From NCBI GenBank assembly GCA_014584635.1, contig JACTML010000036.1, positions 1 to 11,475 of the forward strand: DNA of 11,475 nt, read 5' to 3'. Both the position numbers and the translations under genes were made by a program. Shown here piece after piece: positions 1,996-8,380 of the stretch. This DNA comes from Nitrosomonas eutropha. GTDB taxonomy: Bacteria > Pseudomonadota > Gammaproteobacteria > Burkholderiales > Nitrosomonadaceae. Every line of letters starts with the position of its first letter. The stretch's first letter is position 1. The notes under the pieces were generated by a model that worked only from the letters and a program-made list of their open reading frames with translations, did no database searches and had not been told where the DNA came from.

Positions 1996-4900
1996 TTATT
2001 GCTGCGCTGCCGGGGGGGAGTCAAACCATCGGTACAACACCGGTAACACCACCAGTGTCAGTAACGTGGAAGTAATTAACCCGCCAATTACGACAATAGC
2101 CAGCGGCCGTTGCACTTCCGAACCCGGCCCGGTTGCAAACAAAAATGGGACCAGCCCAAGCATCGCTACCGTAGCAGTCATCAATACCGGTCGAAAACGC
2201 TGCTCACACCCCCGAATGACTGCTTCCCTGACAGCAACTCCTTCGTCACGCAGTTTACGAATGTAGGAAATCAGCACGACTCCGTTCAGTACCGCTATCC
2301 CCCATAATGCGATAAAACCAACCGAAGCTGGCACCGACAAATACTCACCGGTAACAAACAGGCCGAATACGCCACCTATTGATGCAAATGGCAGTACCAG
2401 AATGATCAAAGCGGCCAGTTTAATGGAATTGAACAGCATGAACAACAGAAAGAAAATGGCAGCAATCGTGACAGGAACGATAATCGAAAGTGTATTCATC
2501 GCGCGTTCCATATTCTCAAACTGCCCGCCCCATTCGAAAAAATAGCCATCCGGCAGTTTTACTTCCTTGGCAATCCGCTCCTGTACCTCTGCCACAAACC
2601 CGCCTAAATCACGGCCTTCAACGTTTGAACCGACTACTACACGGCGCTTGGCATTTTCACGTGAAACTTGCGCCGGACCATCAACAATGTTGATACTGGC
2701 CACGGTATACAAAGGCACGGTTACGCCATCCGGTGCGCGCAACAATAGATTACGGATACTCTCGATACTGTCACGGAAATGTTGTGGAAAACGTACTACA
2801 ATGGAAAAACGTCGTTCACCCTCGTACAAAATACTTACTTCACGGCCACCTACAGCAGTCTCAATCAGCTCGTGTACATCCGCAACATTGATGCCGTTAC
2901 GCGCAATGGCATTACGATCAATATCAATAGTCAGCGACTGCTGACCGGAAAGGCGTTCGATTCGGATATCCTGTGCCCCGGGAACAGTACGCAGAATGCG
3001 GGCGATCTGTTCTGACAGCTCGCGTAATTTATCCAGGTCATCCCCAAAAATTTTCACGGCAATTTCAGAGCGTACACCGGTCACCATTTCATCCACTCTT
3101 TCCGCAATCGGTTGCGACAGAACAATATTGACACCAGGCAGTACTTCCAGCAATTTGCGGATATCATCATCCACCTCGTCCTGGGTTCGCCCGGAATTGG
3201 GATCCAGCGTCACCATCGGATCAGATTCATTCTGCCCGGCAGGATCAGCAGGTGATTCACCCCGGCCCAGCTTGGACACGACACTTTTCACCCCAGGCAC
3301 TTGTGAGATAGCCTTCATTGCTTCCATTTCCATTTCAATTGCTTCAGCCAGAGAAATCGAAGCCACTCGGTTAATCTGCGGTGTTAATGCACCTTCCTGC
3401 AAGGTGGGAATAAATGATTTCCCCAGAAATGGAAACAACATGAAAGACAGCAACAGCAGCCCCAGCGCGGTAATAACCGTCAGCCTTCCTTTTTTAAGCG
3501 CCGCGTTAAGCAGGAACCGGTAGGTTTTCTTCAGTCCAATAATGACCCGGGTATCATGCTCGGCTGTTCCACCTTTCAGCACATAGGCGCACAATACCGG
3601 CGACAACGTCAGTGAGACAATCAGGGAAATCGCCAGAGCAATGGCAATTGTAAAAGCCAGCGGGCTGAACAGTTTGCCTTCCATACCCTGTAGCGTCATC
3701 AACGGCAGGAAAACCAGAATAATGATACAGATCCCGAAAATTACCGGTGTGCCCACTTCAGCAACAGCATCCACAATAGCACGCGTCCGGGATTCAGGTG
3801 CACTGTCGCTATGGCCCAGCCGGTGAAAGACGTTCTCCACCACGACTACGGTTGAATCAACCATCAAGGGCGTAACCACCAGCGTTGCCACTACGATCAA
3901 ACTGGAGCGCACATCTCCCAGAAAGATGAACAGTACGATAATAACCAGAAAAATACCTTCCATCAGCACTTTGCTGACTGTCCATAAAGCAGCATCAACC
4001 AAGTCAGTCCGATCATAATATGGAACAATCTGCAATCCATCCGGTAACAGATTTTGTTCATTGATCTCGGCCACTTTTGCCTTGACTCGCCCTACGATCT
4101 CCTTGGCATTCCCTCCCCTGATCATCAGCACGATGCCAGAAGCAGATTCCGTATATCCGCCCTTGATGATGGCCCCTGCTCTCACTTCTGTGCCCAGTTT
4201 TACTTCCGCAACATCACGCACGAACACGGGCACACCACGCTCCTCAGACAACACAATATTGCCGATATCCTGTAGTGTACGGATCAGCCCAACGCCCTTG
4301 ACGAGGTACTGTTCACTGCCTGTCGGCAGAATCCCGCCACTGGCATTGGCATTGTTTTCGGCAATGGCTTTTTCTACCTGCTCCAATGTCAAGTCATAGT
4401 GACGCAGCTTATTGGGATTCGTCAGCACATGATATTGCTTGACGTATCCGCCTTGAGAATTGATTTCCGCCACCCCGGGAATTGAACGCAACATTGGCCG
4501 GACAATCCAGTCCTGCACAATGCGCCGCTTGGTCAGTTCTTCCACGGTCAGCGCTCGTTCCCCGTCATCAGGATGATCTATCGTGTATTGATACACCTCT
4601 CCCAACCCCGTGGAAACCGGACCCAAACGCGGCGTAATTCCGGCTGGCATTTTACTGGCCACTTCCAGCAGTCGCTCCATCACCAGTTGCCGAGCAAAAT
4701 AAACATCAGTTGCATCGGTAAATACCAGTGTAATGATAGATAAGCCGCTCTTGTTCAAGGAGCGCATTTCTTCCAGCCCAGGCATCCCGGTCATAGCAAT
4801 TTCCAGCGGGACGGTTACTAGCCGCTCTATTTCTTCCGGGCTACGGCCGACCGCCTCAGTTGCAATCTGCACCTGAACATTGGTGACATCCGGGAAAGCA

Positions 4901-5010
4901 TCAACCGACAAATGCTGTGCTGCATGCAGGCCAAACCCCATTAAAATCAGCGCAATGACAACGATCACCAGACGCTGCGCCAGCATGGCGCGTACCAGAG
5001 AAATAATCAT
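1996..5010 (-). CDS. czcA: Heavy-metal efflux RND pump, CzcA/CusA family, with apparent in-frame deletion of the TM3-TM4 region
   Basis: This is the inner-membrane proton/cation antiporter of a tripartite efflux system, 1004 residues long. TM1 spans about 13-31, the first periplasmic porter region runs to about 340, and TM2 is about 350-365. TM7 is near 506-528, the second porter region spans about 530-840, and the last five helices occupy about 842-995. Motifs such as DAFPDVTNVQVQ, the R-x-P-A-S-V-G-F-I-like helix region and GCEQRFRPVLMTA place it in the HME (metal) branch. CzcA/CusA proteins are usually about 1030-1060 residues. Here TLVVTPLM runs straight into VDSTVVVVEN (residues 376-393), skipping the end of TM3, the loop and most of TM4, normally something like an SANLMSLGGLAIAIG segment. 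D385 and E392 still match the TM4 Asp/Glu pair spaced by seven. The ATG lies 2 bases after the stop of the adaptor gene, implying coupled translation. Metal specificity cannot be read from sequence. Function is doubtful given the gap. Confidence 0.95.
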   Translation of the reverse strand: MIISLVRAMLAQRLVIVVIALILMGFGLHAAQHLSVDAFPDVTNVQVQIATEAVGRSPEEIERLVTVPLEIAMTGMPGLEEMRSLNKSGLSIITLVFTDATDVYFARQLVMERLLEVASKMPAGITPRLGPVSTGLGEVYQYTIDHPDDGERALTVEELTKRRIVQDWIVRPMLRSIPGVAEINSQGGYVKQYHVLTNPNKLRHYDLTLEQVEKAIAENNANASGGILPTGSEQYLVKGVGLIRTLQDIGNIVLSEERGVPVFVRDVAEVKLGTEVRAGAIIKGGYTESASGIVLMIRGGNAKEIVGRVKAKVAEINEQNLLPDGLQIVPYYDRTDLVDAALWTVSKVLMEGIFLVIIVLFIFLGDVRSSLIVVATLVVTPLMVDSTVVVVENVFHRLGHSDSAPESRTRAIVDAVAEVGTPVIFGICIIILVFLPLMTLQGMEGKLFSPLAFTIAIALAISLIVSLTLSPVLCAYVLKGGTAEHDTRVIIGLKKTYRFLLNAALKKGRLTVITALGLLLLSFMLFPFLGKSFIPTLQEGALTPQINRVASISLAEAIEMEMEAMKAISQVPGVKSVVSKLGRGESPADPAGQNESDPMVTLDPNSGRTQDEVDDDIRKLLEVLPGVNIVLSQPIAERVDEMVTGVRSEIAVKIFGDDLDKLRELSEQIARILRTVPGAQDIRIERLSGQQSLTIDIDRNAIARNGINVADVHELIETAVGGREVSILYEGERRFSIVVRFPQHFRDSIESIRNLLLRAPDGVTVPLYTVASINIVDGPAQVSRENAKRRVVVGSNVEGRDLGGFVAEVQERIAKEVKLPDGYFFEWGGQFENMERAMNTLSIIVPVTIAAIFFLLFMLFNSIKLAALIILVLPFASIGGVFGLFVTGEYLSVPASVGFIALWGIAVLNGVVLISYIRKLRDEGVAVREAVIRGCEQRFRPVLMTATVAMLGLVPFLFATGPGSEVQRPLAIVVIGGLITSTLLTLVVLPVLYRWFDSPPAAQQ
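3853..3876 (-). other. Junction of the inferred in-frame deletion in the RND pump gene
   Basis: At this point the coding strand reads Thr-Pro-Leu-Met-Val-Asp-Ser. In CzcA/CusA relatives the Leu-Met closing the first half (TM3 start) and the Met-Val-Asp of TM4 are separated by roughly 26 residues. The Leu-Met codons here are TTGATG. In family members a Leu/Met-Met pair often precedes the Val-Asp as well, so a short direct repeat on both sides of the lost segment is plausible and would fit slippage or short-homology recombination. The reading frame is kept. The missing segment is inferred from remembered family sequences, not from an alignment. Confidence 0.7.
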
Positions 5011-5012
5011 CG

Positions 5013-6176
5013 CTATTCCAGATCCTTGCGTTTACGCTCGTTATTCAGATGGAAGGCTCCCTTCACAATAATCAGCTGATCTGGTGTTAATCCTTCCAAA
5101 ACGGGCCTCATCTGATTAACCGGTTCGTCCAGCTTCACCTGGGTTAATGTGAAACCACCATCTTCTCGGGCAACAAATACGTGATCTTCATTATGCTCAC
5201 GCACCACTGCGCCTTCCGGGATGACGAGACGTTCACGTGCATGCTCATCAATATGAACCGTAGCCAGCATATCCGGTTTTAGCTTACGCTCAGGATTATC
5301 CACCTCAGTACGGACAGTTACTGTCCTAGTCAACGGATTAACAATATCGGATACGAAAATGATCGTTCCATCGAAACTGGTATCACCCAGTGCCGGCACA
5401 CGAACTTCCACATGCTGCCCTTGCTCGACAAAATGCGCAGCGTATTCCGGAACATCCCCCACCACCCATAGCTCAGATAAATCAGCCAGAGTAAACAATT
5501 GATCCGATGGCTGCACTACTTGTCCAAGCGCTACATTACGCACAATAACCGTGCCACTGCGCGGGGCTGTAATCACCACAGAAGGAAGAATCTGCCCGCG
5601 TCGCGTCAAATCTTGTATCGCCTGATTATCCACCCCAAGCAAAAGCAATTGATCCTTGGCTGCACTCAACTCGGCACTTGACACTTGGGATTCCGATTCC
5701 CGGCGCTGCAGCTCGGCGGCACTAATGACATCCTCAGTGAACAGCTGTCTGGCACGCATGGAGGCACGCTCTGCCAGAACAGCCAATGAATTCGCACGAA
5801 GATAAGCCAATTGCGCCTGTACCAGTTCCGGGCTCGTCATCCTGGCCAGCCTGGCACCCGCCGTCACGTTATCACCCAAATGCGCATAAACCTCGACGAT
5901 TCTTCCAGTAAAACTGGCTCCCACTTGAACAAGTTTCGTCTCATTCACCTTAATCTGGCCGGGAACATGTAACTTTTCAGAGATATCAGCAAGAAACGGT
6001 TTACCGGTTTCAACTCGTTGACGCAAATCCGGTCTGAGAAAAATTGTATGAGAATCAACCGATTCCGCCTTAACATGTTTTTCTGGGGAATCCTGCTCTT
6101 CTTTGCTGCTGCAACCCGAAATAGAAAGCGCTACGAATGCAAAAACAACTGCAATGATTTGTATCTGAGAACTCAT
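5013..6176 (-). CDS. czcB: Periplasmic adaptor (membrane fusion) lipoprotein of the RND system, CzcB/CusB-like
   Basis: This 387-residue protein should link the RND pump to the outer-membrane channel. Residues 1-22 are a lipoprotein signal ending in lipobox ISGC with the lipidated cysteine at C22, so it is anchored in the inner membrane facing the periplasm. The first lipoyl half (VPGQIKVNETKLVQVGASFTG and on, about 50-100) precedes an alpha-helical hairpin at about 105-185. The second lipoyl half follows (VVITAPRSGTVIVRN), then a beta-barrel (LWVVGDVPEYAAHF to about 310) and a membrane-proximal domain ending near KGAFHLNNERKR. Length and order are normal. There is no Met-rich or His-rich metal-chaperone extension at the N-terminus, so nothing points specifically to copper or silver. 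The start lies 9 bases after the stop of the outer-membrane factor gene. An AGGAG sits 12 bases ahead of the ATG, a rather long spacing. The stop is 2 bases from the pump start. Confidence 0.95.
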   Translation of the reverse strand: MSSQIQIIAVVFAFVALSISGCSSKEEQDSPEKHVKAESVDSHTIFLRPDLRQRVETGKPFLADISEKLHVPGQIKVNETKLVQVGASFTGRIVEVYAHLGDNVTAGARLARMTSPELVQAQLAYLRANSLAVLAERASMRARQLFTEDVISAAELQRRESESQVSSAELSAAKDQLLLLGVDNQAIQDLTRRGQILPSVVITAPRSGTVIVRNVALGQVVQPSDQLFTLADLSELWVVGDVPEYAAHFVEQGQHVEVRVPALGDTSFDGTIIFVSDIVNPLTRTVTVRTEVDNPERKLKPDMLATVHIDEHARERLVIPEGAVVREHNEDHVFVAREDGGFTLTQVKLDEPVNQMRPVLEGLTPDQLIIVKGAFHLNNERKRKDLE

Positions 6177-6185
6177 TGGGAAAGA

Positions 6186-7439
6186 TTACTCCTGTGGATA
6201 ATGCGCTCGCAGCCGATCTATCTCTGCTGCTGCTGTCTGCAATTCGAACTGGGCCTGCAATAATTCCGAGCGCGCATTGCGCAGCACCCGTTGAGTATCC
6301 AGTACCTCGATAAACCCTCTTTCTCCCAACCGGAAAGCCGCTTCCGCCACGCGCAACGCAGCTTTCGCCTCCTTGACGATGCCGCCTTCGAACATCTCTA
6401 CCCGGCGCCGAGCAATTTCCATGGCCTGCCAGGCAGACTCCAATAACCGGCCAATTTCGTAACGACGATAATCAAGCGTTTCACGTACCCTGGCCGCATC
6501 TGAAACAGCCGCATCAATTTCGCCCCGCTGTCGGTAAAAAAGTGGAATCCGCACACTCAGTCCAGCGGTATTCGATGTAAATTGCTTGTCCTGAAAGTTG
6601 CTATAAAGGACATTTACAGAAGGCAGCACGGAAGCACGCTCCTGATCGATACGTAAATTTGCACGATCCTGCTCCGCTTCCAGCCGCTGAATTTCCGGAT
6701 TTGTAACGGGTAATTCCGCACGCAATATCTCCAGCGAAGGCAATTCGACCGGATCGCTAAGTGAAGCAGCAACATCAAATTCGGCAGGTAAAGCACCCGC
6801 TGTCAATTTCAACAAGGCAATACGCGCCCGCTCTGTATTCAACAATGCTGCTTCTTTTCTGCTTGCCGCTGTCATCACCTCGGTATCGGCCCGAATCAGC
6901 TCAAATCGGGCAATTTCACCCGATTCAACACTCAGTTTGATACGGCGTTGAATTTCTCCCATCAAATTGAAAATATCCGATTCCATTTCTGCCAGACCGC
7001 GCCGTAACAGAAATTCGTAGATATGTACCCGCAGTTGTGCCGCCAGATCTGCTCGGGTCTGCTCCAGATTTGCACGACTGGCTTCAACACCAGACTCCGC
7101 CGCCCCGATGCGGGCACGTCGCACCCATGGATTTTCCAGTGGTTGGCTGACGGTTACCTGCCGCTGCATGGAAGATGGCCCAGTATCGATCTCTGGCAGT
7201 CGCCGACTATCAGGCCCGGCCATGAAGGTTATTTCCGGGTTGGGAAATGCCGATGCACTGGTTACTCCCGCCTGTGCAATATCAACCTGTGAACGTGCTG
7301 CCTGCAACAGGCCGTTAGCCTGCAACCCCATGCGCTGAATATCTGCAACGGTATAGCTGCCACCTGCTGCCAGAACAGAACAATTCAATATAAATAAAGT
7401 CAGACCACACAAAACCCATGAGAAAAAAACATTACACAT
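6186..7439 (-). CDS. czcC: Outer-membrane efflux channel of the RND system, TolC/CzcC-like
   Basis: This 417-residue outer-membrane factor should form the trimeric exit duct. Residues 1 to about 24 are a Sec signal peptide ending near VLAAG. The mature part starts with YTVADIQRMGLQANG and contains two OEP-type repeats rich in long alpha-helices with alanine, arginine and glutamate. The second repeat includes LSVRIPLFYRQRGEIDAA and the closing LGERGFIEVLDTQRVL segment seen in CzcC-type proteins. There is no lipobox at the signal, unlike many CusC/OprM proteins, which fits a CzcC-type member. It is the first gene of the operon, 9 bases ahead of the adaptor gene. The ATG at 7439 lacks a clear Shine-Dalgarno; the only purine-rich element is a GGAA about two dozen bases upstream. 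I keep this start because the signal peptide follows directly from it. Confidence 0.93.
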   Translation of the reverse strand: MCNVFFSWVLCGLTLFILNCSVLAAGGSYTVADIQRMGLQANGLLQAARSQVDIAQAGVTSASAFPNPEITFMAGPDSRRLPEIDTGPSSMQRQVTVSQPLENPWVRRARIGAAESGVEASRANLEQTRADLAAQLRVHIYEFLLRRGLAEMESDIFNLMGEIQRRIKLSVESGEIARFELIRADTEVMTAASRKEAALLNTERARIALLKLTAGALPAEFDVAASLSDPVELPSLEILRAELPVTNPEIQRLEAEQDRANLRIDQERASVLPSVNVLYSNFQDKQFTSNTAGLSVRIPLFYRQRGEIDAAVSDAARVRETLDYRRYEIGRLLESAWQAMEIARRRVEMFEGGIVKEAKAALRVAEAAFRLGERGFIEVLDTQRVLRNARSELLQAQFELQTAAAEIDRLRAHYPQE

Positions 7440-7491
7440 ACGAAAAATGATAGTTATTCATATTCCAACAACAGTACCCGCATAAAGTTAT

Positions 7492-7505
7492 CAATCATAC
7501 GATTG
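7492..7505 (-). promoter_or_regulatory. Candidate operator/-10 region for the efflux operon
   Basis: The sequence CAATC-N4-GATTG is a perfect 5-base inverted repeat. On the minus strand it contains TATGAT, five of six bases of the sigma-70 -10 consensus, about 55 bases before the outer-membrane factor start codon. Only a poor -35 (TTTAAT) is found at suitable spacing, which would fit an activated promoter. An operator overlapping a -10 element is plausible but unproven, and a repeat this short can occur by chance in AT-rich DNA. Confidence 0.22.
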
Positions 7506-7522
7506 CACATAAAAAAATTAAA

Positions 7523-7630
7523 TCAGTCACTTATATCTTTTGATTGATTAAGTTTTGCACGAGTGATCATCACAAAAAACATGGCCAAGGTGTCGATTCC
7601 GCGGACGAGTGACAGTGAAATATCTATCAT
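7523..7630 (-). pseudogene. Possible degraded fragment of an IS4-type transposase, or chance small ORF
   Basis: A 35-codon frame starts at ATG 7630 and ends at TGA 7523-7525. Its product includes RGIDTLAMFFVMITRAKLN. This vaguely resembles the RGYxDFxRLY...FFVTRAKxN segment of IS4-family DDE transposases with several residues missing between the two halves. There is no ribosome binding site, no terminal inverted repeat was found, and the match is from memory. The alternative is an untranslated chance frame, or a small leader peptide for the efflux operon. Confidence 0.18.
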
Positions 7631-7715: not shown

Positions 7716-8375
7716 TTAATCAGAAGCGCCCTGCTCTGACTTCCGTCTTTTTATCTGGCGCTTTTTCCACCACCATCCTGCTATTAACAACGTAAGGGCT
7801 ATATACCAGATGCCGTAAGTCCGTATCCAGGTTTGTGGATTCTCTTTTACGAACAGCTGAATTTCAGCCAGATCAGCAGTTTGCAGATGTCCGGAAGCGG
7901 TTCCGGTTGTTTGCATATATAACTTGACAGATAGTTCATAACGCCCTTTTTTCTCCGGTGTAACAATCCAGGACCAGTGCGTTTCCTTCTGGTTTGAAAA
8001 AAGCTGAATTTGGGGTTCAGGCGGATCAATAGAGAAAGCATCACCGGTTATTCCTGCCTGCATTTCGGGAAAAATTTCATCGTGAATACCTTGCGGCTCT
8101 GTTCCAGGTTGGGATTTTTTAACGATGTCATTGATACGCAGCGCTAACTCTTTGGTATCCAGCCGCAACGTAATTTCAAAAGGCTTGAATTGCTTCACTT
8201 CACGCGGCAGGGTAATGACTGAGCTGTCTGCGGGTAATTTCATCTTTACGAGCGGTGGAAAATGTTTTTCTCCAAACCAGGCATGTGCAAGAAAATTCAT
8301 TACAAACGGAACCAGTAAAATAGCCGCAATCAAGGTTGGCAACACCATGTTAAAAGGAGCGTCTTTCTTGTACAT
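7716..8375 (-). CDS. Unrecognised membrane-anchored protein with periplasmic beta-rich domain and two terminal helices
   Basis: The product has 219 residues from the second of two adjacent ATG codons, or 220 from the first at 8376-8378. The strong Shine-Dalgarno (GGGAGG complement at 8381-8386) is 5 bases from the second ATG but only 2 from the first, so I prefer the second. A hydrophobic helix at about 12-33 follows a short positive N-terminus. The middle, about 35-185, looks soluble and strand-rich. A second helix at about 188-204 (IALTLLIAGWWW) is followed by a highly basic tail with RQIKRRK. This suggests both ends in the cytoplasm and the middle in the periplasm. Within the middle, HWSWIVTPEKKGRYELSVKLY resembles the WxWxVTPxxxGxxxLxLxV pattern I associate with Ig-like periplasmic sensor domains in large multi-domain proteins. 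I do not recognise the family and assign no function. It is divergent from the phosphodiesterase gene and upstream of, but 276 bases from, the efflux operon. Confidence 0.8.
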   Translation of the reverse strand: MYKKDAPFNMVLPTLIAAILLVPFVMNFLAHAWFGEKHFPPLVKMKLPADSSVITLPREVKQFKPFEITLRLDTKELALRINDIVKKSQPGTEPQGIHDEIFPEMQAGITGDAFSIDPPEPQIQLFSNQKETHWSWIVTPEKKGRYELSVKLYMQTTGTASGHLQTADLAEIQLFVKENPQTWIRTYGIWYIALTLLIAGWWWKKRQIKRRKSEQGASD

Positions 8376-8380
8376 CATAT

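Follow-up and report, generated by a model that had tools for sequence, protein, structure and literature searches.

In a draft genome of a Nitrosomonas, the gene for a heavy-metal efflux permease is missing 81 bp that specify 27 residues in every compared homologue covering the site, and this gap is most likely an artefact or a recent null allele and not a new kind of pump. The split between these two readings is a matter of judgement; we consider it probable that the segment was lost from the draft or from the library behind it. The stretch of 11,475 nucleotides that was analysed, called the window here, is contig C229 of a 1.68 Mb draft that comprises 230 contigs and is 80% complete.

The window carries an ordinary three-gene heavy-metal RND efflux operon from a Nitrosomonas near N. 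eutropha (Table 1). Membership of the permease in the CusA/CzcA family is indicated both by its TIGR00914 score of 1069.6 bits, against a curated cut-off of 701.45, and by the adjoining genes for an adaptor and an outer-membrane factor. These two genes have no indel relative to the strain Nm24, as expected from the preliminary description, which had called the rest of the operon intact. Upstream of the operon lies an ORF of 220 aa (7716-8378, minus strand) that gave a weak Pfam CcmH match below the cut-off (E 0.061) and no NCBIfam match. PADLOC returned no match.

Table 1. Genes and loss junctions in the window (C229), with the clean internal losses found on other contigs of the draft.
Feature	Contig	Position	Strand	Size	Remarks
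CusA/CzcA-family heavy-metal efflux RND permease gene	C229	1996..5010	-	1004 aa	Without 27 residues; ORF, TIGR00914, Pfam ACR_tran
Periplasmic adaptor gene	C229	5013..6176	-	387 aa	HlyD_D23, RND_mfp; 0 indels vs Nm24
Outer-membrane factor gene	C229	6186..7439	-	417 aa	OEP/TolC family; 0 indels vs Nm24
ABC transporter gene	C229	136..1944	+	602 aa	ABC_membrane + ABC_tran; separate 17-residue loss near C-terminus
Junction of permease loss (P381-L382-M383-V384)	C229	3862..3868	-	81 bp, in frame	Window CCC TTG ATG; nearest orthologues TTGCTG ... TTGATG
Junction of ABC transporter loss (between IVEE and NHQS)	C229	1890..1896 (~1893)	+	51 bp, in frame	
Loss in Cache-GGDEF diguanylate cyclase	C230	~8344		93 bp, in frame	L140 (G000:C230)
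Loss in BPSS1780-family membrane protein	C193	~404		49 bp, out of frame	L184 (G000:C193); near contig end
Loss in TonB-dependent receptor	C150	~362		58 bp, out of frame	L143 (G000:C150); near contig end
Loss in mutL	C162	~2711		134 bp, out of frame	L154 (G000:C162)

The gap among homologues and its edges

In the minus-strand permease ORF, TLVVTPLM abuts VDSTVVVVEN and the frame stays open, exactly as the preliminary description had reported. Its in-frame loss of about 26 residues also stands, except that the size is 27 residues: alignment with the closest orthologues confirmed a gap of this length and showed no close orthologue that matches the window protein in length and aligns without a gap. 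Placement of the junction is ambiguous over a TTG at 3867-3865.

When the fused region was searched against proteins, 7995 candidates were scored and the best 120, including the query, were listed; all 119 others carry exactly 27 residues at the site and the query alone is without them. A search of 61 genomes led to 29 loci, and each of the 28 that cover the site has exactly 27 extra residues. When these 29 loci were combined with the best 80 from GTDB contigs, a set that may omit records very near the window's genome, the segment was found in 108 of 109 loci (some genomes being present twice, such as L015/L046 and L016/L051), the remaining locus, L028, ending before the site. Among the nearest proteins, P0006 (1031 aa, on 20 public contigs) agrees with every one of the 1004 residues of the window protein and differs only in having the 27 residues, which are present in all of P0002-P0011 (at least 98.7% identical; 46 contigs among the matches listed). 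On these alignments, the gap is no product of chance and appears private to the window's contig in the data compared, and a literature search found nothing in print on this deletion of the pump. Two variants of other kinds were seen: P0004, from a Nitrosomonas sp. whose longest contig is 1.69 Mb, has the 27 residues and differs at its C-terminal end, and the pump gene of another genome of the genus (L017, G017:C12) has a 1-bp frame shift near residue 116.

That the gap is ancestral and the relatives gained 27 residues can practically be discounted. No support for ancestral absence was found in this material, and we rejected the idea because the segment is present in compared relatives both within and beyond the genus; the CusA and ZneA matches also have extra chain residues at this point.

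The preliminary description had suggested a deletion between TTGATG-like direct repeats. Short repeats are indeed present at the edges, where the two nearest orthologues (L015 from Nm24 and L016 from Nm57) read CCC or CCT TTG CTG ... GGA TTG ATG GTT and the window reads CCC TTG ATG GTT, but the exact match is only 3 bp, or five of the six positions of the hexamer (TTGCTG versus TTGATG). Among random 81-bp deletions in the Nm24 gene, ~8% have at least 3 bp of microhomology and ~3% touch a five-of-six hexamer, so that the match at the edges is only mildly unusual. The missing 81 bp were also sought in the rest of the draft, which yielded only 52 bases at 77% identity on contig C228, in another RND gene.

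A genuine and very recent in-frame deletion between TTG[C/A]TG repeats is a possible, less probable explanation. Such an event would have halved TM3 and TM4, removed the TM4 proton relay and turned the permease gene into a null allele. The short direct repeats at its edges and its preserved frame speak for it, as does the fact that the gap is the sole indel in the coding part of the operon (1996-7439) relative to both Nm24 and Nm57. The rest of the gene, moreover, is strongly constrained (dN 0.0145, dS 0.318 versus Nm24). A lost pump may be compensated by a second RND gene elsewhere in the genome; the one on C228, which is 40-42% identical and has an open frame of 1066 residues, is a candidate. 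Counted against the null allele is the occurrence of the query protein on a single contig among the matches listed.

Transmembrane helices and the proton relay

Missing from the protein are the last part of TM3 and the first half of TM4. The preliminary description had named the end of TM3, which holds, and most of TM4, for which the models indicate the first half, or much of the helix. In an alignment of 73 homologues chosen by hand (63 listed proteins plus 10 loci), 15 of the 27 lost residues are invariant, which favours a damaging loss as in a null allele.

AlphaFold models of the window protein and of full-length P0006 were built from matched alignments. TM3 and TM4 span residues 367-391 and 397-427 in P0006 (25 and 31 residues) and are cut to 367-379 and 385-400 in the window protein (13 and 16 residues). 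Model confidence in the block 381-390 is 65 for the window protein and 86 for the full-length control; overall, mean pLDDT is 76.8 versus 77.6 and pTM is 0.60 versus 0.66. Hydropathy likewise gives one merged stretch in the window protein and two in P0006. The window permease thus does not have the full set of twelve TM helices, with TM3 and TM4 entire, that marks the family, and helices of 13 and 16 residues would be too short for each to span the membrane.

According to PMC8092243, the proton-relay residue D405 and methionines along the metal path are located in TM4 of CusA, a point change of D405 abolishes transport, and TM4 is needed for proton coupling, which is a further point in favour of the null allele. 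In the window protein D385 and E392 are retained. D385 lies in an MVD motif that aligns with the MVD of CusA TM4, its equation with D405 resting on chain numbering worked out here; the acidic relay residue is kept and much of its helix is gone. The shortened permease has probably lost transport, and the lost or altered transport proposed in the preliminary description is supported to that degree. Its appeal to the removal of CzcA D402 was rejected, since the orthologues have Ala at that position (AIG-x3-DST-x3-VEN) and the argument has no bearing on this subfamily.

A functional RND pump of reduced topology, with merged or re-entrant TM3 and TM4, was also considered. The open frame and the retention of D385 and E392 agree with it, and the modelled window protein retains the RND fold (TM-score of 0.89 against CusA) with overall confidence near that of the control. 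However, AlphaFold models tend to retain the family fold whatever is cut out, and the kept fold therefore says little; the damaged model still matches CusA, and the match does not discriminate. The two helices are too short, confidence falls locally at the junction, and the gap is shared by no compared relative, for which reason the genuine variant envisaged in the preliminary description was rejected as very improbable.

Other small losses in the same draft

Neither a second loss in the window, of 51 bp in the ABC transporter gene, nor losses on other contigs were visible in the preliminary description, whose interpretation as a whole is partly supported. We compared 60 other contigs (488 kb) of the 230, plus the window, with ~1.07 Mb of an Nm24-like genome (G036), and ORFs were compared both ways. 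The first screen matched ORF against ORF (264 pairs) and the second matched reference ORFs against the draft (226 pairs, ~74,000 aligned residues), the pairs being stop-to-stop ORFs, some antisense, and not curated genes. Six clean internal losses, of 49, 51, 58, 81, 93 and 134 bp, were picked by hand from the 14 rows of one screen. The rows dropped were five shifts of 1-2 bases, a 27-bp loss where conservation is weak (L162), a 60-bp gap close to an uncertain ORF start (L140) and an antisense row that repeated the L143 event.

The diguanylate cyclase loss, like that in the pump gene, is private: all 44 homologues have the 31 residues, ten of them being 97.5-99.2% identical outside the gap. 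At the ABC transporter site exactly 17 residues are present in 114 of the best 120 homologues listed; of the other six, P0165 (590 aa, named partial) shows none and five show 5, 24 or 25 residues. Of the 12 relatives searched for mutL, 9 gave a single unbroken match that starts at residue 1 or 3 and runs to 607. In two distant ones the match is divided in two inside a single open frame (of 706 and 687 residues), and in G003 the gene is a fragment where a contig ends; in the draft mutL falls into two pieces in different frames. Among 13 genomes the C193 gene is split in two only in the draft, with G001 alone covering the query from end to end.

Three of the six losses, including both in the window, are in frame (p 0.32 versus one-third by chance). 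Three are located no more than ~410 bp from the end of a contig, a zone that makes up 10% of the sample (p 0.016, a pattern noted post hoc). Screening in the reverse direction (187 pairs) produced seven rows, and we regarded none of them as a clean loss at a conserved position: one row of 27 bp at residue 8, one of 20 bp, two shifts, and three from a single locus, L149, which has a His-rich linker and was the only one inspected closely. As a control, the 109 other pump loci (~337 kb of one gene, with some genomes present twice) showed no loss of at least 24 bp and a single 1-bp shift, that of L017.

The second loss in the window and the similar losses on other contigs make an artefact the leading explanation, because the losses form a narrow size class, half of them are out of frame, and they affect unrelated conserved genes in one fragmented draft, in part near contig ends. 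The pump gap would then belong to a class of internal losses of 49-134 bp, for which we infer an origin in library amplification or in the joining of reads or contigs across short overlaps. The pump gene in the living cell would be full length and would encode a 12-helix, proton-driven exporter of a divalent metal. Against an artefact, the short edge repeats are also compatible with replication slippage in vivo, three in-frame losses out of six may likewise reflect selection, the missing 81 bp were not found elsewhere in the draft, and the six losses were hand-picked. The losses of similar size elsewhere in the draft, half of them out of frame and one in mutL, weigh in turn against a genuine deletion that made a null allele.

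If the losses were all real, they might mark a deletion-prone Nitrosomonas lineage in which mutL is broken and deletions of 50-130 bp have accumulated across conserved genes, a metal pump among them. We regard this as improbable, although such a lineage, with its broken mutL and numerous small deletions, would merit study. The main value of the case is as a warning that an in-frame loss in a draft genome can mimic a striking variant of a membrane protein. Before a protein of reduced topology is claimed, it costs little to check whether the remainder of the draft has losses of similar size.

The operon and related RND systems

The operon (~2250-7540) is 91-93% identical by block to Nm24 and 89-91% to Nm57. 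The flanks of the window are 77-84% identical by block, and where the sampled draft aligns with the Nm24-like genome its mean identity is 80%. The higher identity of the operon points to its probable exchange by recombination between Nitrosomonas species. Within the sample, identity of at least 90% is otherwise reached only on L143, where the TonB-dependent receptor is 95% identical to Nm24 over 1.7 kb. Since the closest ABC transporter among the matches listed agrees at only 549 of 588 residues, the operon may be shared between species, and the presence of the pump segment in close strains does not prove that they are the same species as the window's genome.

For the full-length pump a divalent metal is probably the substrate. 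The TM4 motif of HME1/HME2 pumps (CzcA, CnrA type) is DFG-x3-DGA-x3-VEN (PMC3637150), and full-length homologues of the window pump read AIG-x3-DST-x3-VEN in its place. HME4 pumps (CusA type, Cu/Ag) bind metal at the methionines M573/M623/M672 (PMC8092243). These align, as read off the alignment, with Q545/E595/E641 of the window protein, and the replacement of methionines by Gln and Glu makes a divalent metal the likelier substrate.

The Nm24 (L046) and Nm57 (L051) permeases share 974 and 972 of 1004 residues with that of the window. Their operons are colinear with it and both have the same TM4 end, VDSTVVVVEN, but they have 27 more residues, which complete TM3 and TM4. The nearest solved structures are E. 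coli CusA (3k07, 3ne5) and ZneA (4k0e), with which the window protein has the RND fold in common. CusA has a methionine site of the Cu/Ag type, whereas the corresponding Q545/E595/E641 are not of that type, and the CusA and ZneA chains both contain residues at the gap site, where the window protein lacks part of TM3 and TM4.
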